Assembly: GCA_903927615.1 (NCBI GenBank)
Contig: CAIYNU010000022.1
Coordinates: 62,001 to 126,000, forward strand
DNA length: 64,000 bases
Direction of reading: 5' to 3'
Source: an uncultured Rhodospirillales bacterium
GTDB lineage: Bacteria; Pseudomonadota; Alphaproteobacteria; Azospirillales; Azospirillaceae
Shown here: one piece after another, positions 57,400 to 64,000 of the stretch
Position numbering within the stretch: position 1 is the first letter of the stretch
Layout of the letters: every line of letters starts with the position of its first letter
Position numbers and translations under genes: made by a program
The notes under the pieces: model-generated
The model's input: the letters and a program-made list of their open reading frames with translations, nothing else
Databases searched by the model: none
What the model was told of the DNA's origin: nothing

Positions 57400-59208
57400 A
57401 TGGAAAGATGGGCTATCAAGATCAACCGGATGTTGATCCGCGATTACGGCTGGGACAACGGCCGCCGGGATCTGATCGCCGGACTGACGGTCGCCGCCAT
57501 CGCCCTGCCCCAAGGCATGGCCTACGCGCTCCTTGCCGGTGTCGATCCCCGGTTCGGGCTCTACTCGGCGATCGTGATCACCGCGGTGGCGTCGATCTTC
57601 GGTTCCTCGTCGCATTTGATCAACGGGCCGACCAGCGCGATTTCCCTGGTGGTGTTCAGCGCCCTGGCTTTTTTTGATCCGGACGCGCACCTCGAAGCGG
57701 CCGAGGCCATGTTCTTGCTGGGCGTGATGGTCGGCAGCATCCAAATTCTGATCGCGGTGTTCAAACTTGGCGACCTCACCCGCTATATTTCCGAATCCGT
57801 CCTGCTCGGCTTCATGGCCGGAGCGGCACTGCTGCTGGCGATCGGGCAAATCGCCAACCTTCTTGGGGTCAGAGATCGCGGGACCGGACATCAGACTATC
57901 CTGCACCGGGTCTGGTTGACGCTGACCGAGGGCGATCCGGTCAATATCAAGGCGGTTGTCATCAGCGTCACAACCGTTGCGCTCGCCTTGGTCCTGCGCA
58001 AGATGGTGCGCACCTATCGGTTGCCGCAGATGGATATGCTGGTGGCCTTGTTGCTGGTCACCGCGGCGGCTGTGCTCCTGGGCTGGTCGGAACCCGATAC
58101 TGCCGGGCACACCGCGATTGCCGTGGTTGGGGTGGTGCCGGCCAGCCTGCCCTTGCCGCACATCCCGGAGATCAAATTCGAATGGATCACCGAACTGTCC
58201 ACCAGCGCGATGGCCATCGCCTTCCTGGGGCTGGTCGAAGCCCTGGCGATCGCCAAATCCATCGCCGTCCACACCCGTCAGCCGATTGACTACAATCGTC
58301 AATGTCTCGCCGAAGGACTTGCCAATCTCGTCGGCGGATTCTTCCGCTGCCTGCCCGGTTCGGGTTCCCTGTCCCGTTCGGCGATCAACTTTCAGGCCGG
58401 AGCGGCGACGCGGATGTCGGGGGTCATCACCGCGGCGGCGGTCGCGATGGCGCTGCTGTTGCTGGCCCCCTTGATCCATTTCATTCCCAAGGCGGCACTG
58501 GCCGGCCTCCTGGTCATCACCGCCGCCCGGCTGATTGATCTGGAGCGCCTGGGCTATGCCTTTCGTGCGTCGAACTATGACGCGGGACTGGTGTTGATTA
58601 CCGCCTTCAGCGCGATTTTCGTCGGTGTCGAATATTCGATCCTGGTCGGCGTCGCTCTTTCGATCGTGCTGTTTGTGCCCCGGGCAGCCAGCCTGCGGGC
58701 TGCCGAACTGGTCGTCAGTCCCGAGCAGGTCGTTCGTGGGCGCCGGCCGACCGATCCGCTGTGTACGGCGACCATCCTGTTCGATCTTGAGGGTGAATTT
58801 TTCTTCGGCGCCGCGCCTGAACTGGACCGTTACCTTGACGAGGTGAAGGAGCGTGCGCTGTCCCAGAACACCCGAGTCATCGTGCTTCGGCTCAAACGGA
58901 TTCGCAACCCCGACGCCGTCTGCCTGGAGCGGATCGATCATTTTCTGCGTGATACCCAAGAACTTGGGATCACGGTGCTGCTCGCGGGCGTTCGCCCCGA
59001 TTTTCTGGTGGCGATCAACAGCTTGAATTTCCTGGACTGGTATCCTCTTGATCACATCTTTCCGGAAGAAGGCGACCACGCCGATTCCGCCACGCTCAAC
59101 GCCGTGCGCCGGGCCTACGAGTTGCTCGGGAATGCCAACACCTGCGAACACTGCAAGCCGCCCAAAGAAGCGAAAACCGCTGAGACTGAATGGTATTACA
59201 TGGTGTAG
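57400..59208 (+). CDS. SulP-family anion transporter with STAS domain
   Basis: The protein has 602 residues. The membrane domain has about 12-14 helices and the SulP signature AGLTVAAIALPQGMAYALLAG near the N-terminus, INGPTSAIS, and RCLPGSGSLSRSAIN. The C-terminal STAS domain (about 450-575) includes VIVLRLKRIRNPDAVCLERI. SulP proteins move sulfate, bicarbonate or other anions with sodium or protons; this branch has been linked to either sulfate or bicarbonate. Its position next to two sulfotransferase genes makes sulfate attractive, but that is inference. It lies 43 bases after uvrA. Confidence 0.9.
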   Translation: MERWAIKINRMLIRDYGWDNGRRDLIAGLTVAAIALPQGMAYALLAGVDPRFGLYSAIVITAVASIFGSSSHLINGPTSAISLVVFSALAFFDPDAHLEAAEAMFLLGVMVGSIQILIAVFKLGDLTRYISESVLLGFMAGAALLLAIGQIANLLGVRDRGTGHQTILHRVWLTLTEGDPVNIKAVVISVTTVALALVLRKMVRTYRLPQMDMLVALLLVTAAAVLLGWSEPDTAGHTAIAVVGVVPASLPLPHIPEIKFEWITELSTSAMAIAFLGLVEALAIAKSIAVHTRQPIDYNRQCLAEGLANLVGGFFRCLPGSGSLSRSAINFQAGAATRMSGVITAAAVAMALLLLAPLIHFIPKAALAGLLVITAARLIDLERLGYAFRASNYDAGLVLITAFSAIFVGVEYSILVGVALSIVLFVPRAASLRAAELVVSPEQVVRGRRPTDPLCTATILFDLEGEFFFGAAPELDRYLDEVKERALSQNTRVIVLRLKRIRNPDAVCLERIDHFLRDTQELGITVLLAGVRPDFLVAINSLNFLDWYPLDHIFPEEGDHADSATLNAVRRAYELLGNANTCEHCKPPKEAKTAETEWYYMV

Positions 59209-59260: not shown

Positions 59261-60124
59261 TCACGCCGACGGATAGGCGGGAGGCCGCGGCTCATACCCC
59301 AGACGGTGCATCATCGCGCCATGAGCGTCCACGATGGCCGTTGCCTGGGCGGCGGTTAACGCCAGACGCCAGTCACCGACGCACCCTTTGCGAAAGAATA
59401 GCGAGGTCCTCGACAGCCTTTCAGTGAATCCCGCCTCGCGCTCTTGGGACTGAAGCCTGGCGAAGTCCGAATGCTGAACCGCCCTTTCGATTGCCGCCGA
59501 ACCGAAGTCCAGGCCGAGAAAGTGCGCCACGCCCGTAAAGGTGTCGACCGGGGCGACGACCAGATCCTCGTAACGCACGAGATGGACCGGCATCTCCCCC
59601 TGGTCCAGCCAACTGGCAACGTGGGCGCTCCAATCCAACAGGCGCGAGTGGAAGCGCCCACTTCGCGCCCGACGCGGCGATCCGGTCAGCGCCGTGTTCA
59701 TCCCGGCAATGGCCTGGTCGATGGTAACGTCAAAGTGATGGCTCAGCGAGACCGCAACATCACGGGGATCCCGGACGATGTAAATCACGCCCCGCGCCGC
59801 CATACGCCCAAACAGCGGTTCACCGGGCGCGATTTCGGTATAGGCGTCATGGACTTTGATGAAGTGTGGTGCTGGAACCTCGGCGCCCAGGGCCTCGTAG
59901 ACCGCCGGACGCAATCGGTCGACTTCGTCATCGTCCAGCAGATTGGCCGCAAGAAGCGTCCAGGCGTTAAAAACATCTTTAGACTCAGCCATATAAACGT
60001 CGTCGAGGTCATTGATGGGCAACGGCTCCGCCGCACCGGAGGACAGATTGGCCAGCAAAACCCGCATCCAGGTGTTGCCCGATTTTGGATAGGAAGCCAG
60101 CCACACGATTCCCCCTCGGGTCAT
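59261..60124 (-). CDS. Sulfotransferase (P-loop, PAPS-dependent)
   Basis: The protein has 287 residues from ATG 60124, which overlaps the hprK-like stop (ATGA); the outer ATG 60142 is less likely. The PAPS 5'-phosphosulfate loop YPKSGNTWMRVLLA lies at the N-terminus and the 3'-phosphate motif IVRDPRDVAVSLSHHF near 130. VRYEDLVVAPVDTF near 190 and RKGCVGDW near 255 match cytosolic sulfotransferase motifs. It should move sulfate to a hydroxyl or amine of an unknown acceptor. Translational coupling to the HPr-kinase-like gene ties the two functionally. Confidence 0.85.
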   Translation of the reverse strand: MTRGGIVWLASYPKSGNTWMRVLLANLSSGAAEPLPINDLDDVYMAESKDVFNAWTLLAANLLDDDEVDRLRPAVYEALGAEVPAPHFIKVHDAYTEIAPGEPLFGRMAARGVIYIVRDPRDVAVSLSHHFDVTIDQAIAGMNTALTGSPRRARSGRFHSRLLDWSAHVASWLDQGEMPVHLVRYEDLVVAPVDTFTGVAHFLGLDFGSAAIERAVQHSDFARLQSQEREAGFTERLSRTSLFFRKGCVGDWRLALTAAQATAIVDAHGAMMHRLGYEPRPPAYPSA

Positions 60125-61086
60125 AGGTTCAGGCTCCGCCAATGGCCTTCCAACACCGGAAGGGCTTCGGACAACAGGCCGAGATCATCGGGACGCGACA
60201 AGCCGAAGATCGGCACCCGTCGCAACAGGGCCGACGAGGCCGCAAACCACTGTCGCTCGGCTCCCGTCGCCTTGATCATGCGGGGACGATAGGCGTTGCT
60301 GCGCAAGGCATTCAGTGCCTTCATGGGGCTTAAACGGTCGATCTCCCACCGCGTCTGCCGGCGATCACCCAAAAGAACATAGATGGCGCCCAACGGCACC
60401 TCGTCGGGTACACAAGTCTGCGGCGGTTGGACCCAGAGCTTGGACAGTCCCGCACGAACCGCCGCCCCTCCTTCCATATTCAGGTGTGCGATCACGTTGG
60501 ACCACAGCTTGATCATGCGGCCATCCGGCCGAAGCGTGGCCTGCCCGCCGGCAAGGACGTCGAGGACACAAATATCGTCGGACAGAAACGGATGGCCGGC
60601 GTTGGCCAGGGCGGCGGCAAGGGTCGACTTGCCCGCTTCGGAGGGCCCGCAGAACAGCATGGCCTTGCCGCTGACCTCTACCGCACTGGCATGGACAACA
60701 TAGCCACCACGCTGGTGGAACAGCACGCCAAGGGCAGTGCCGCACAGGAAAATATGAAAATCCTGGTCCGATCGTCCGTTTTCGGGAGCATAGACGACGG
60801 TCTTCCCCCCCGTTACCAAAAACCGCAGCCGTCCCGGAATCTGCACCAGGACACGGTCGCCGGCAATCTGCCAATTCGGCCCCAAGGGAACTCCGTCAGG
60901 CAACGCCGCCGGCAGCTCGCCTCGCTTTAACACGATATCGGGTGTCGCATCCGGCGTCACGGGAACGGCCCCCGGAAGCTCGATATCGGTCGCCACGTGA
61001 CAGCCGCAAATTCTGTAGCGATACTCCACAGAGGCCTCTCCAGACTGGTGGTTGGCGGCTTTGGGCCCCCAGATCATTGCTTTCAT
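60121..61086 (-). CDS. HPr-kinase-related protein
   Basis: The protein has 321 residues. An N-terminal domain (about 15-120) is followed by a HprK-type P-loop domain: CGPSEAGKSTLAAALANAG (about 147-165) and LSDDICVLDV (Walker B-like). The surrounding GYVVHASAVEVSGKAML and PIFGLSRPDDL fit HprK-related kinases that occur beside PqqD-like proteins in peptide-modification gene sets. No HPr/PTS gene is nearby, so carbon-catabolite control is unlikely. It is co-translated with the downstream sulfotransferase and diverges from the pqqD-like gene. Confidence 0.8.
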   Translation of the reverse strand: MKAMIWGPKAANHQSGEASVEYRYRICGCHVATDIELPGAVPVTPDATPDIVLKRGELPAALPDGVPLGPNWQIAGDRVLVQIPGRLRFLVTGGKTVVYAPENGRSDQDFHIFLCGTALGVLFHQRGGYVVHASAVEVSGKAMLFCGPSEAGKSTLAAALANAGHPFLSDDICVLDVLAGGQATLRPDGRMIKLWSNVIAHLNMEGGAAVRAGLSKLWVQPPQTCVPDEVPLGAIYVLLGDRRQTRWEIDRLSPMKALNALRSNAYRPRMIKATGAERQWFAASSALLRRVPIFGLSRPDDLGLLSEALPVLEGHWRSLNL

Positions 61087-61348
61087 CGTTCCGGTCGGGA
61101 AATCGGCACTGGCCGGTGGCCGGTGGCCGGTGACTATCCCGACGGGATGGATCGGTCAATGGTTGCGCACCGGACGCGGCTTGCGCTGGCCTTCAGTGGC
61201 CAGAAACACGCTGGGAACCGGGTCGCCTCTGACGGCTGGGACCAAAGAGAGCAGGGCATCGTGGGCAATTTCGCTTTATCCCTCCCGACGGGTGGGTTAG
61301 GATCGAAGTGTTCGCGTCATCTTTCAAGGAAAATTCAGGGAACAGTGT
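61087..61348. other. Divergent intergenic region of the HprK/PqqD cluster
   Basis: It separates two divergent operons and holds three tandem GGCCGGT units. No precursor-like small gene with a credible leader was found: the longest plus frame (MDRSMVAHRTRL...) overlaps the pqqD-like start and lacks a ribosome-binding site. No clear promoter hexamers are seen. Confidence 0.45.
61111..61131. repeat. Three tandem GGCCGGT units
   Basis: Three exact 7-base copies, located just upstream of the hprK-like start. It may bind a regulator or be a simple slippage product. Confidence 0.6.
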
Positions 61349-61633
61349 ATGTGCATAACGTTGTATGATGTCGTCCAGCGGGCTCCTGGAGCCCTGGCTG
61401 CTGAGATCGACCAGGAAATTATAATTCTTGATGTCAATTCGGCCAAATATCTATCCTTGAACGAGGTCGCCGCAGCGATTTGGCGCACCCTCGAAACTCC
61501 GCTTTCGGTTGATGATCTCTGCCAGAGGCTGCAATCCTCCTTTGAGGCCCAGCCCGAAACCATCACAGCCGACGTGCTGGCGTTCCTTGACCGTCTCGAC
61601 GAACGGGGCCTGTTGCTGCGCGAAACGAAATAA
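61349..61633 (+). CDS. PqqD-like peptide-recognition protein
   Basis: A 94-residue protein matching the PqqD/RRE winged-helix pattern: LAAEIDQEIIILDVNSAKYL, LNEVAAAIWRTLETPLSV, and LAFLDRLDERGLLL. PqqD proteins bind the leader of ribosomal peptides and present them to modifying enzymes. AGGGAA lies upstream of the ATG. Its stop overlaps the next ATG (TAATG), so it is coupled to the Stf0-like gene. HprK-related kinase and PqqD partners recur together in diverse Proteobacteria. Confidence 0.85.
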   Translation: MCITLYDVVQRAPGALAAEIDQEIIILDVNSAKYLSLNEVAAAIWRTLETPLSVDDLCQRLQSSFEAQPETITADVLAFLDRLDERGLLLRETK

Positions 61634-62436
61634 TGACTGTGGGTGAGGACGAACAGACCTGGGCCGGTCCGGCCTTCGACCAGCCGTCCCAACCTCTGAC
61701 CCGGTTCATCATCATTGCCAAAACGCCCCGTGTCGGCAGCCACCTGCTCGGCCGCCTGCTGTGGCGAGCTGGTCTTGGCGTGCCGCATGAATACTACAAC
61801 AGCCAGTATCTGCCGACATTCGCCCAACGCTGGGGGGTCGATCGGGCGGATCCTTCATTTCCGGCGCGCTATCTTGAGGCTGTGGTTCGCCACCGCACGG
61901 TCGGCGGCGTTTGCACGGTGAGTTGCGCGCCTCGGCGTTTCCATCTGTTGGAGGATGGCCTGGCGGCCTGCCAGGGTCTGCCCGGTCCGTCGTTCGTTCA
62001 TCTGTGGCGGCGTGACAGCCTGGCGCAGGCAATTTCATTACAGTTGGCGACCCAGAGCGGGTTCTGGGACATGACGGCCGAACCGACCAGCCCGCCGGAA
62101 CCAGACATGGACATCCTGGATCTGGACGCCCTGCGTAGGACCATCCGATGGCTGCTGATGGGGGAACTCTGGTGGCGGGCGGATTTGCGGTGCCGCACCC
62201 GTTCATTGATCCATATCGACTACGAAACGCTGATCCGCGAGCCCCAGCAAACCTTGCGGCGCATCGTTGAGGCCCTGGTTCCCGATCGCGCCGCCGTCCT
62301 CGGTCCGCCTGCGGCCGAGCCTCCGACGCCTGAGCGGCTGTGGGCGCTCCAGGTCCTTTCCGCGGACCAACGGCGGGGGCTTTACCAGGCTTATCAGGCG
62401 CGATTCGGTCCCCTCACGCCCTTGCCCGACCCCTGA
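61633..62436 (+). CDS. Stf0-type sulfotransferase
   Basis: The protein has 267 residues. The N-terminal loop AKTPRVGSHLLGRLLWRAG matches the P-loop of Stf0-like (trehalose 2-sulfotransferase) enzymes, and HEYYNSQYLP, FVHLWRRDSLAQAISLQLA and IDYETLIREPQQTLRRI are the other family blocks. It should use PAPS and a carbohydrate or other small acceptor. It differs clearly from the second sulfotransferase in the cluster. It is coupled to the PqqD-like gene, and its 3' end overlaps the OGT-like gene on the other strand by 23 bases. Confidence 0.83.
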   Translation: MTVGEDEQTWAGPAFDQPSQPLTRFIIIAKTPRVGSHLLGRLLWRAGLGVPHEYYNSQYLPTFAQRWGVDRADPSFPARYLEAVVRHRTVGGVCTVSCAPRRFHLLEDGLAACQGLPGPSFVHLWRRDSLAQAISLQLATQSGFWDMTAEPTSPPEPDMDILDLDALRRTIRWLLMGELWWRADLRCRTRSLIHIDYETLIREPQQTLRRIVEALVPDRAAVLGPPAAEPPTPERLWALQVLSADQRRGLYQAYQARFGPLTPLPDP

Positions 62437-63988
62437 CCGGATGCGGAACGACGCCGAAGCCGCGCGGCCCGCCGCCGTCGCAGTGAATGGCCCACATCAC
62501 TTCGTAGGCCGTTTCCAGGTGGGTTGTGAAACGCCCGCAATCAAACAACGGCGCCGACAGCCGGTTGGCCGACAGCCGCCGTCGGAGCGCCGCCAGTTCG
62601 TCCCGATGGTTGGCAAGATGGAGCGCCAGGGTTTCATAAGCATCAGGATCGGACGCGATCAGTTCGGGTAGCCCCAGCACCGTCAACAGGCTGGCGGCGA
62701 CGCGGCCGGCAAAGCTCCGGCCCAGGCACGTCACCACCGGCACCCCGGCCCACAGGGCATCGCTGGCGGTGGTGTGGGCACCGTAGGGCTGGGTGTCGAG
62801 ACACAGATCGGCCAGGCCAAGGCGGGCCAGATGGTCGGGCAAGGGCAGAAAGGGGGCAAAGACCAGCCGCTCCGGGGCCACGCCTTGCACGGCAGCGTCC
62901 CGGCGCAGATTGGCCGCCATCATCTCGTTGCTTTCCAGCAGCCACAACACGGCGTCCTTGACCCGTTGCAGCAGTCGCATCCACCGTTCGAACATGGCCG
63001 GAGTCAGCTTATGGGGCGGGTTGAAGCAGCAGAAGACGAAGCCGGACGGGGGCAAACCCACCTCCCGGCGCAACGGACGCGCAGCGGCAATAACCTTGGT
63101 CGAATCGTTGCACTGGTAGCTGTCCGGCAACACCACCGGCTGTTCCGAAAAATGGGCGGCCACGGCATCCGGCAGGACCACCGGGTCTCCGATCACATAA
63201 TCGATGCAGTCGGCGGCCATGGTGCCCGGAAACCCCAGATAGTTCACCTGGATCGGAGCCGGACGGCGCCAAACAATGCCGGTCCGGGCCCCCGCCGTGT
63301 ATCCATTGAGGTCGACCAGAATGTCGATGCCGTCCTGGTGGATGCGGCAGGCCGCGTCGTCGTCCGAGCACTCGCCAAGCTCGACGAAGGAATCGAAGCC
63401 GTGAACAATCCGGCGGCGGATTGCGGTTCCATCATCCCGGCCCAGGGAATAGCCAAACAGGGTCACCCGCCGGCGATCGTGACGCTCGAACAGTTCCGCC
63501 GCAAGGTGGGAGGTCGCGTGTTCCCGGAAGTCAGCCGAAAGATAGCCAATCCGGAGAACCGGTTTCAGGGCTGGCGGTTCATGCGGAAAGCATCCCGGCA
63601 TCGAAGCCCCGGCTCGGAGAAATCGCGTCAAGGCATACTGACGGGCCGCCGCGTGGTGATGAACGGGATCGTCGGTAAAATCCAGTGCGTCAAAAGGGGA
63701 AAAACGCTTTTGCCCGATCAATTCGGCGACACCCAAACCGCCGTCGCGCCAATCAGCCACCTCGCGGCTGCGAACGGCCAGACGGGCCCGCACCGCCGGA
63801 TGATCGGGAAAGCGGGTCAGGGTATGGCGCAGGAACGCCAGCAATCCCGACCGCCCTCGGGGCCAGAGCCCCATTTCCAGGTCCAACGCCATCTGTACCG
63901 CCGGAGCGTCCACAGAAGACTGACTCTGCTCTGGCTGTTTCATTGGTCGTGCTGCTCCCTTGCCCCACAGATGGCCCGGCGACCGCAT
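62414..63988 (-). CDS. O-GlcNAc transferase-like (GT41) protein
   Basis: A 524-residue or longer protein; the frame is open to the window edge, so the N-terminus is uncertain (internal ATG at 63943 has weak support). The GT41 catalytic core is clear: LRIGYLSADFREHATSHLA, LVDLNGYTAGAR, IQVNYLGFPGTMAADCIDY, FCCFNPPHKLTP and LCLDTQPYGAHTTASDALWA. The usual TPR superhelix ahead of the core is very short (about 100 residues). Such bacterial enzymes transfer GlcNAc or other sugars to proteins. It converges on the Stf0-like gene. Confidence 0.85.
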   Translation of the reverse strand: MRSPGHLWGKGAARPMKQPEQSQSSVDAPAVQMALDLEMGLWPRGRSGLLAFLRHTLTRFPDHPAVRARLAVRSREVADWRDGGLGVAELIGQKRFSPFDALDFTDDPVHHHAAARQYALTRFLRAGASMPGCFPHEPPALKPVLRIGYLSADFREHATSHLAAELFERHDRRRVTLFGYSLGRDDGTAIRRRIVHGFDSFVELGECSDDDAACRIHQDGIDILVDLNGYTAGARTGIVWRRPAPIQVNYLGFPGTMAADCIDYVIGDPVVLPDAVAAHFSEQPVVLPDSYQCNDSTKVIAAARPLRREVGLPPSGFVFCCFNPPHKLTPAMFERWMRLLQRVKDAVLWLLESNEMMAANLRRDAAVQGVAPERLVFAPFLPLPDHLARLGLADLCLDTQPYGAHTTASDALWAGVPVVTCLGRSFAGRVAASLLTVLGLPELIASDPDAYETLALHLANHRDELAALRRRLSANRLSAPLFDCGRFTTHLETAYEVMWAIHCDGGGPRGFGVVPHPVRGRARA

Positions 63989-64000
63989 CTTGACGTTTCG

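Follow-up and report, generated by a model that had tools for sequence, protein, structure and literature searches.

A probable split-B lasso-peptide cluster with a kinase-sulfotransferase module in an uncultured Rhodospirillales bacterium

Kinase-bearing lasso-peptide clusters and the present locus

Lasso-peptide kinases of the paeninodin type transfer phosphate onto a C-terminal Ser (PMC8498205; PMC9266682), and a His-Lys-Asp-Asp set of residues is essential in lasso kinases (PMC9266682). The published layouts of kinase clusters are A-B1-B2-C-K-D in proteobacteria and C-A-K-B1-B2-D in Firmicutes (PMC5067487). An HPr kinase accompanied by a sulfotransferase was mentioned for lasso clusters of anaerobes and Firmicutes in 2014 and 2016, briefly and with no function assigned (PMC4289311; Zhu 2016, cited in PMC8498205). 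In the bsf system of Bradymonas, the residue phosphorylated by BsfK is Ser3 of the core, and Ile occupies leader position -2 (PMC10368454), and in pseudomycoidin a nucleotidyltransferase places a hexose on the phosphate (PMC8498205). We found no report of a sulfated lasso peptide in the literature, and sulfation is not among the known lasso modifications in reviews of 2022 and 2026, even though many major bacterial groups have lasso clusters in which a sulfotransferase (ST1) gene immediately follows that of the kinase. This puts the target of ST1, and the reason for its link to the kinase, within reach of experiments on only a few genes.

The locus described here lies at the end of a 64,000-nucleotide stretch of DNA (the window) and continues beyond it. 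Like the paeninodin-type clusters (PadeK, ThcoK, SyanK), it has an HprK-like kinase (K) with the His-Lys-Asp-Asp set, split B1 and B2, an asparagine-synthetase cyclase (C) and a Ser-terminated precursor (A); unlike them, it pairs the kinase with a sulfotransferase, adds a Stf0-type enzyme and a GT41 glycosyltransferase, and contains no D (ABC) transporter gene that we could find; an isopeptidase gene was likewise not found in the cluster. The clusters of 2014 and 2016 have the same two types of tailoring gene, whereas here kinase and ST1 emerge as a unit that recurs, together with precursors, in many phyla. With bsf (BsfK, BsfB1), the locus shares a Gram-negative lasso kinase aided by B1 and a W/YxxP-type leader, but its precursor has Thr at -2, and Ser at core positions 8, 17 and 19 only. 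A locus on plasmid pTM1 of Tistrella mobilis (L127), which contains precursors, CmcI and TylF methyltransferases, PqqD, HprK and GT41, is similar in its W-x-x-P precursors with C-terminal Ser and in an HprK gene that overlaps a GT41 gene; it differs in lacking ST1, in showing no cyclase in the fetched region, and in having sugar-type methyltransferases instead of Stf0. Pseudomycoidin offers the precedent of a lasso peptide that is both phosphorylated and glycosylated, but in the window's cluster it is a GT41 enzyme that is proposed to add the sugar. What the locus contributes is a precursor with a defined core, and in GT41 and the second sulfotransferase it offers two candidate enzymes for decoration with sugars. 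The kinases are annotated as 'hypothetical protein' in both annotated plasmid records examined, as are the Tistrella precursors.

Layout of the cluster across the window edge

The five window genes probably represent one half of a lasso-peptide cluster of the split-B type that includes a tailoring module of kinase and sulfotransferase; the second half of the cluster, with the precursor gene, begins about 50 bases beyond the window end (Table 1). The order on the one contig is ST1-HprK / PqqD-Stf0 / GT41 / A / C / B2, with the Stf0 and GT41 genes tail-to-tail. The first-pass annotation had placed the five genes correctly, as coordinates and Pfam matches agree, and the two overlaps that it described are both real: the HprK stop codon TGA (60123-60121) overlaps an ST1 ATG (60124-60122) as ATGA, and the PqqD stop codon TAA (61631-61633) overlaps the Stf0 ATG as TAATG, which couples Stf0 translationally to B1. 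It had withheld a lasso call because precursor, cyclase and B2 were absent from the window. That absence is genuine but arises only because the window stops, with all three genes at 64053-66741; the search for a small precursor beyond base 64000, as it advised, yielded precursor A, which has counterparts in relatives.

Table 1. Features of the cluster. Position x of locus L007 corresponds to window position x+59000; positions above 64000 are window-equivalent positions on the same contig.
Feature	Position	Strand	Evidence
ST1, PAPS-dependent sulfotransferase	59261..60142	-	PF00685 (Sulfotransfer_1), 88.5 bits
K, HprK-like lasso-peptide kinase (probable)	60121..61086	-	Hpr_kinase_C, E 1.3e-5
B1, PqqD-type RiPP recognition element	61349..61633	+	PqqD, 73.4 bits
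Stf0-type (sugar-sulfotransferase-like) second sulfotransferase	61633..62436	+	PF09037, 70 bits
GT41 (OGT/SPINDLY-like) glycosyltransferase, short N-terminal region	62414..63988	-	PF13844, 307 bits
Window end, first part of GT41-precursor spacer	63989..64000	.	Spacer 64 bp, divergent
Precursor A	64053-64226	+	W-x-x-P leader, C-terminal Ser
C, cyclase, asparagine-synthetase type	64267-66216	-	Asn_synthase, 108.7 bits
B2, leader protease	66274-66741	-	Transglut_core3, 75.7 bits

A chance grouping is excluded because the gene set recurs in other genomes; HprK, PqqD, C, B2 and a W-x-x-P precursor with C-terminal Ser are repeatedly found together in relatives. Among NCBIfam models, B1 scores best against NF033536, that of the lasso PqqD chaperone, with 57.9 bits under a cut-off of 80, and in B2 Cys93 and His128 are invariant in the alignment, the third residue of the triad not being evident. 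A SulP sulfate permease gene (57400-59208) and NicO were also considered as parts of the system and set aside: each has homologues in some same-genus genomes, with nothing found that ties them to lasso loci.

The leader of precursor A contains the motif W23-L-R-P26-E-W, the last residue of which, Trp, falls outside the published [L/V/I/A/F/Y] set of the [Y/W]xxPx motif, and Thr37 occupies position -2. The register of the core is fixed by W(-16) in relatives; the core starts with KRGTRTD, in which Asp7 is the candidate macrolactam acceptor, within the requirement for Asp or Glu at 7-9, and ends in ESAS. The leader Trp, Thr(-2), the acceptor and the C-terminal Ser are common to A and the precursors of relatives, and homologues with the same register and Lys1 occur in two same-genus genomes. 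To our knowledge, it is unusual for a lasso peptide to start its core with Lys, and so is a ring of seven residues. One precursor search among relatives admitted only candidates with an acidic acceptor and with Ser at the C-terminus, and these two features are not independent there; a search without the Ser requirement recovered a Ser-terminated precursor-like ORF in about 32 of 41 loci. Neither the HprK-PqqD gap (61087-61348) nor the region upstream of B2 contains an ORF with leader and core features.

The kinase and its sulfotransferase partner

The HprK-like protein matches Hpr_kinase_C under the gathering score and HprK-related models only weakly, with Walker A and DD motifs present. It retains H132, a Walker A motif GPSEAGKS with K153 and S154, and D170-D171; H132, K153, D170 and D171 constitute the His-Lys-Asp-Asp set of lasso kinases. 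Membership in the HprK-rel-A system (TIGR04352/TIGR04353) was rejected on scores of 41.2 bits against a cut-off of 200 and 25.8 bits against a cut-off of 35, and membership in SynChlorMet on a score far under its cut-off. The true start of ST1 is likely the internal ATG at 60124. The protein carries a 5'-PAPS loop of the YPKSGNTW type, a K-x-H motif (K96, H98) and RDPRDVAVS (R124-DPRD), all conserved in eight aligned copies, and its nearest solved structures are the glycopeptide-antibiotic sulfotransferases TEG12 and Teg14.

Kinase and ST1 constitute a widespread lasso-cluster module, as indicated by the presence of ST1 at 45 of 78 HprK loci and by the adjacency of the two genes in loci retrieved by ST1 match from all bacteria in GTDB. 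Among these 80 ST1-retrieved loci, 72 have an HprK within 500 bp of ST1, 70 have it directly upstream on the same strand, and 65 contain at least two of HprK, PqqD, C and B2. Within the window's family, 21 of 24 ST1 matches lie no more than 2 kb from an HprK. The first-pass annotation had named HprK-like and PqqD-like genes that always occur without the sulfotransferases as a finding that would speak against its reading, and these counts contradict such a pattern. The presence of Ser, Thr or Tyr in the tail of the core shows a weak link with ST1 (39/44 against 12/20, uncorrected p 0.016). A particular sulfation site was not assigned from core composition, where the signals are weak and uncorrected.

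GT41, the Stf0-type enzyme and the proposed product

GT41 aligns to residues 109-549 of XcOGT and, in human OGT, to the catalytic lobes; because the match to the XcOGT structure starts only at residue 109, the helical front is indeed unusually short, as first described. Two paralogues in the same genome are encoded by ORFs of 752 and 891 aa, the genome contains at least 10 GT41 matches, and paralogues are abundant in the genus. In the tree, the window copy falls among ordinary family paralogues and is excluded from the clade (99/99) formed by the four GT41s of Tistrella and G032 HprK loci, which rules out a shared origin with them. A GT41 adjoining HprK recurs in Tistrella and in one other genome (G032), and Desulforapulum has a row of GT41, kinase, two sulfotransferases, C and A; such neighbourhoods recur independently of the window copy, and GT41 is an extra in this cluster. 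The Stf0-type protein meets the broader Pfam Stf0 domain and scores 37.8 bits against the trehalose 2-sulfotransferase model NF047724 (cut-off 400). We found no relative above about 35% identity, and a GTDB scan with the protein gave none; the enzyme is a singleton and, like GT41, an extra here. The first-pass annotation had taken the five genes together to suggest a system for peptide, protein or glycoconjugate modification by phosphorylation, sulfation and glycosylation. HprK and PqqD do belong to a peptide system, in which the genes point to phosphorylation and sulfation, but a single conserved set of all five is not supported, with a singleton Stf0 and a GT41 outside the cluster-associated clade.

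Elsewhere, proteins and sugars are the substrates of GT41, Stf0 and Sulfotransfer_1 enzymes, as would befit a protein or glycoconjugate modification system with no small precursor; however, precursor, cyclase and leader protease adjoin the five genes, and K, B1 and ST1 travel with these across genomes, so that such a system is largely refuted and very improbable. A linear or simply cyclised phospho- or sulfopeptide without threading, comparable to the LPPs (linear polyphosphorylated peptides) of Bacillota, would accord with the HprK kinase and YxxP leader motif common to LPP clusters (PMC13381572), and with the precursors at L096, L098-L100, L102, L106, L108 and L116 that have no cyclase in the fetched region. 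C and B2, though, are mostly missing from LPP clusters (PMC13381572) and are present here, and A has an acidic core residue 7 and Thr(-2), and we consider a product of this kind quite unlikely. It is also unlikely that the HprK-like protein serves as a non-phosphorylating scaffold for ST1, with a product that is sulfated only: Glu does replace the middle Gly of Walker A, and the His and second Asp are lost from the same-genus HprK copies at L067 and L068, but the window protein keeps all four residues that are essential in lasso kinases (PMC9266682).

A weightier alternative, which we judge a real possibility if somewhat short of an even chance, limits the lasso system to A, B1, B2, C, K and ST1 and regards Stf0 and GT41 as passengers that came to lie within the cluster, with cell-surface sugars or other proteins as their substrates. 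The same-genus lasso loci L057, L067 and L068 lack both genes, and the number of GT41 matches in the genome and the position of the window copy in the tree argue in the same direction. Against this stand the TAATG coupling of Stf0 to B1, the 64-bp spacer between the divergent GT41 and A genes, and the GT41-HprK adjacency that recurs in Tistrella, G032 and Desulforapulum, where sugar-type methyltransferases or a second sulfotransferase accompany the pair.

The fuller reading, in which the kinase-ST1 unit acts on the peptide while the Stf0-type enzyme sulfates a sugar attached by GT41, giving a phosphorylated, sulfated and glycosylated lasso, is put forward tentatively, as possible but on balance doubtful. 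Such a product would be without precedent as a sulfated lasso peptide and would represent a kinase-sulfotransferase module found across many phyla.

The lasso-cluster model itself is the reading that we consider probable. The genes with their motifs, the precursor and the recurring set of A, B1, B2, C, K and ST1 are observed, and a likely order of events can be proposed from them. By homology, B1 would bind the W-x-x-P leader of A and the kinase would phosphorylate A, most likely at the C-terminal Ser, after which the co-translated ST1 would sulfate one of the hydroxyls of A with PAPS as donor, the acceptor being presumed. B2 would then cleave after Asn(-1) and C would join Lys1 to Asp7, again by homology, to give a 19-residue lasso. 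GT41 would probably place a hexose or HexNAc on Ser or Thr, and the Stf0-type enzyme would probably sulfate that sugar; here both the acceptors and the action on the peptide are presumed. Judged from the genes, the product would most likely be a 19-residue Lys1-Asp7 lasso, phosphorylated at the C-terminal Ser and sulfated, possibly with a sulfated sugar. The calculated mass of the unmodified 19-residue lasso is 2046.01 Da.

Cluster layout and precursor

The window edge cuts through the cluster, and the remainder lies on the following 2.8 kb of the 298-kb contig, of which the window comprises bases 62001-126000. The first-pass annotation had described five genes, encoding an HprK-like kinase (HprK, or K), a PAPS sulfotransferase (ST1), PqqD (B1), a Stf0-type sulfotransferase and a GT41 glycosyltransferase, and all are present where it placed them, with the ATGA and TAATG overlaps that it reported. 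It was also right that the window lacks a precursor, a lasso cyclase and a B2 leader protease; all three occur on the next 2.8 kb.

Cluster genes beyond the window edge, in window-equivalent positions (region L007 is contig 121001-141000; L007 position x is window position x+59000)
Feature	Position	Strand
Precursor A, short ORF	64053-64226	+
Cyclase C, asparagine-synthetase-like	64267-66216	-	
B2 leader protease, Transglut_core3 protein	66274-66741 (L007:7274-7741)	-	

Aligning B2 with its relatives (alignment A3) shows that Cys and His are kept in the proteases of the window group, and that no third catalytic residue of the kind usual for B2 proteases is evident after the HAW motif.

Precursor A reads MADLTVGHLAVATRPEAQDKRPWLRPEWEEMNIETITN / KRGTRTDSRGCRAINESAS. 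The pattern of a short ORF with W/YxxPx[hydrophobic], Thr 14 residues on, an acidic core residue in position 7-9 and a C-terminal Ser matches once in the 8.1-kb cluster, at A, and nowhere in the 64-kb window or the next 12 kb; shuffled cluster sequence gave a mean of 0.003 matches. The first-pass annotation had proposed looking for a conserved small precursor nearby, and A is one, with counterparts in two same-genus genomes (RTN/KKDRTPTDGIVKNIRSISS and RTA/KKDRSPSDGSGQHALS) that share its register and Lys1 and lie near HprK, ST1 and C. When the C-terminal Ser was not required, about 32 of the first 41 loci still yielded a W/YxxP ORF with Ser as its last residue; peculiarities of A are a core cysteine, Lys1 and a predicted 7-residue ring.

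A SulP-family sulfate permease gene (window 57400-59208) is convergent with ST1, 52 bp apart. Genus relatives offer no support for a SulP-lasso link; the permease might feed PAPS synthesis.

Recurrence of the HprK-ST1 pair

The search for HprK homologues covered 145 relatives and 385 genomes of the class, and profiles grown from the window's proteins served to annotate the neighbourhoods of 78 HprK loci. ST1 is present at 45 of these loci, and PqqD, C and B2 at most of them. Within the window's family, ST1 is practically dedicated to HprK lasso clusters, because its relatives lie within 500 bp of HprK in 19 of 24 cases and within 2 kb in 21; ST1 relatives without HprK do occur outside the family. 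When bacteria and archaea were scanned with an ST1 alignment, one genome per species, 72 of the best 80 loci had HprK within 500 bp of ST1; in 70 it lay upstream of ST1 and on its strand, and 65 loci contained two or more of HprK, PqqD, C and B2. These figures measure how often ST1 occurs with HprK and not the converse, since the loci were chosen by ST1 similarity. The 80 loci come from hosts that include Alpha-, Gamma- and Zetaproteobacteria, Acidobacteriota, Chloroflexota, Bacteroidota, Verrucomicrobiota, Desulfobacterota, a cyanobacterium and others. Of the five genes whose co-occurrence the first-pass annotation proposed to check, HprK, PqqD and ST1 recur, together with C and B2, whereas GT41 appears at some loci and the Stf0-type gene at this one only.

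ST1 relatives without a nearby HprK (L154 from Legionella erythra, L193, L203, L205, L210, L215, L216) represent either non-lasso uses of the sulfotransferase or clusters truncated at the limits of the fetched region. HprK+ST1 pairs with one to three W-x-x-P/C-Ser precursors each (L116:7092-8210 and neighbours, with three in tandem; L096, L098, L099) have no cyclase in the fetched regions; either a C encoded elsewhere in the genome acts on the peptides, or they remain linear. A haloarchaeal lasso-type cluster on Halopiger xanaduensis plasmid pHALXA01 (L217) carries asnB, B2, PqqD, a nucleotidyltransferase and a stretch resembling HprK, annotated as hypothetical proteins.

The occurrence of HPr kinase and sulfotransferase genes in lasso clusters was noted in 2014 with no function assigned (PMC4289311), and PMC8498205 relates the same for Firmicutes from a 2016 report, again with no function assigned. 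Such genes are therefore already known; we have seen no account of how widely the K-ST1 pair is distributed, or of its being combined with GT41 and a second sulfotransferase. The 2022 and 2026 reviews and text searches of the openly licensed literature contain no sulfated lasso peptide, and a report outside that literature is possible.

Proposed chemistry and its variants

Lasso B1 proteins hand the leader to B2 and can aid tailoring kinases; the linear precursor is the substrate of HprK-like kinases, which usually phosphorylate its C-terminal Ser (PMC8498205, PMC9266682, PMC10368454). Because the window HprK keeps His132, Lys153, Asp170 and Asp171 and A ends in Ser, the simplest reading is that HprK would phosphorylate A on that residue. 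ST1 keeps its PAPS-binding and catalytic motifs, and since its nearest solved relatives sulfate glycopeptide antibiotics, it would be sensible for ST1 to act on a hydroxyl of a peptide natural product. The fixed K-ST1 gene order suggests that the two enzymes work sequentially on one and the same peptide. Ser/Thr/Tyr residues are slightly commoner in the tail where a cluster has ST1, a weak, uncorrected signal that does not set the sulfated residue. Two HprKs of the window's genus (L067:5289-6059 and L068:8669-9418) have the catalytic His replaced by Asp and the second Asp by Gly, and are probably inactive as kinases, though their clusters keep ST1.

The Stf0-type enzyme is a singleton addition to the cluster: searches of 82 family genomes, 398 phylum genomes and plasmids and the GTDB scan gave no close relative (best identity about 34-35%). 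GT41 adjoins HprK and PqqD, with W-x-x-P/C-Ser precursors, in three Tistrella genomes and one other (G032). In the tree these GT41s form a 99/99 clade that excludes the window copy, which lies near ordinary GT41s of its family; the window GT41, if active on the peptide, would have been recruited separately. These two enzymes are read most coherently as a pair in which GT41 puts a sugar on the peptide and the Stf0-type enzyme sulfates that sugar, in parallel with the GT41 and methyltransferase sets of other clusters, although we give it somewhat less than an even chance.

Tistrella mobilis plasmid pTM1 (L127:7610-12591) carries PqqD, an HprK gene that overlaps the GT41 gene, CmcI and TylF methyltransferases, and two precursors whose annotation is hypothetical protein. 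CmcI and TylF belong to families known for sugar O-methylation, and the locus is a candidate methylated glyco-phosphopeptide cluster. A Desulforapulum autotrophicum MAG (L152:6340-13743) has in one row GT41, HprK, ST1, a protein whose second sulfotransferase domain sits behind a region of ~280 aa with no assigned domain, C and a W-x-x-P precursor, so that the window's tool set is found again in a different phylum. As the window and this MAG both carry a kinase, two sulfotransferases and GT41, this set has been assembled at least twice.
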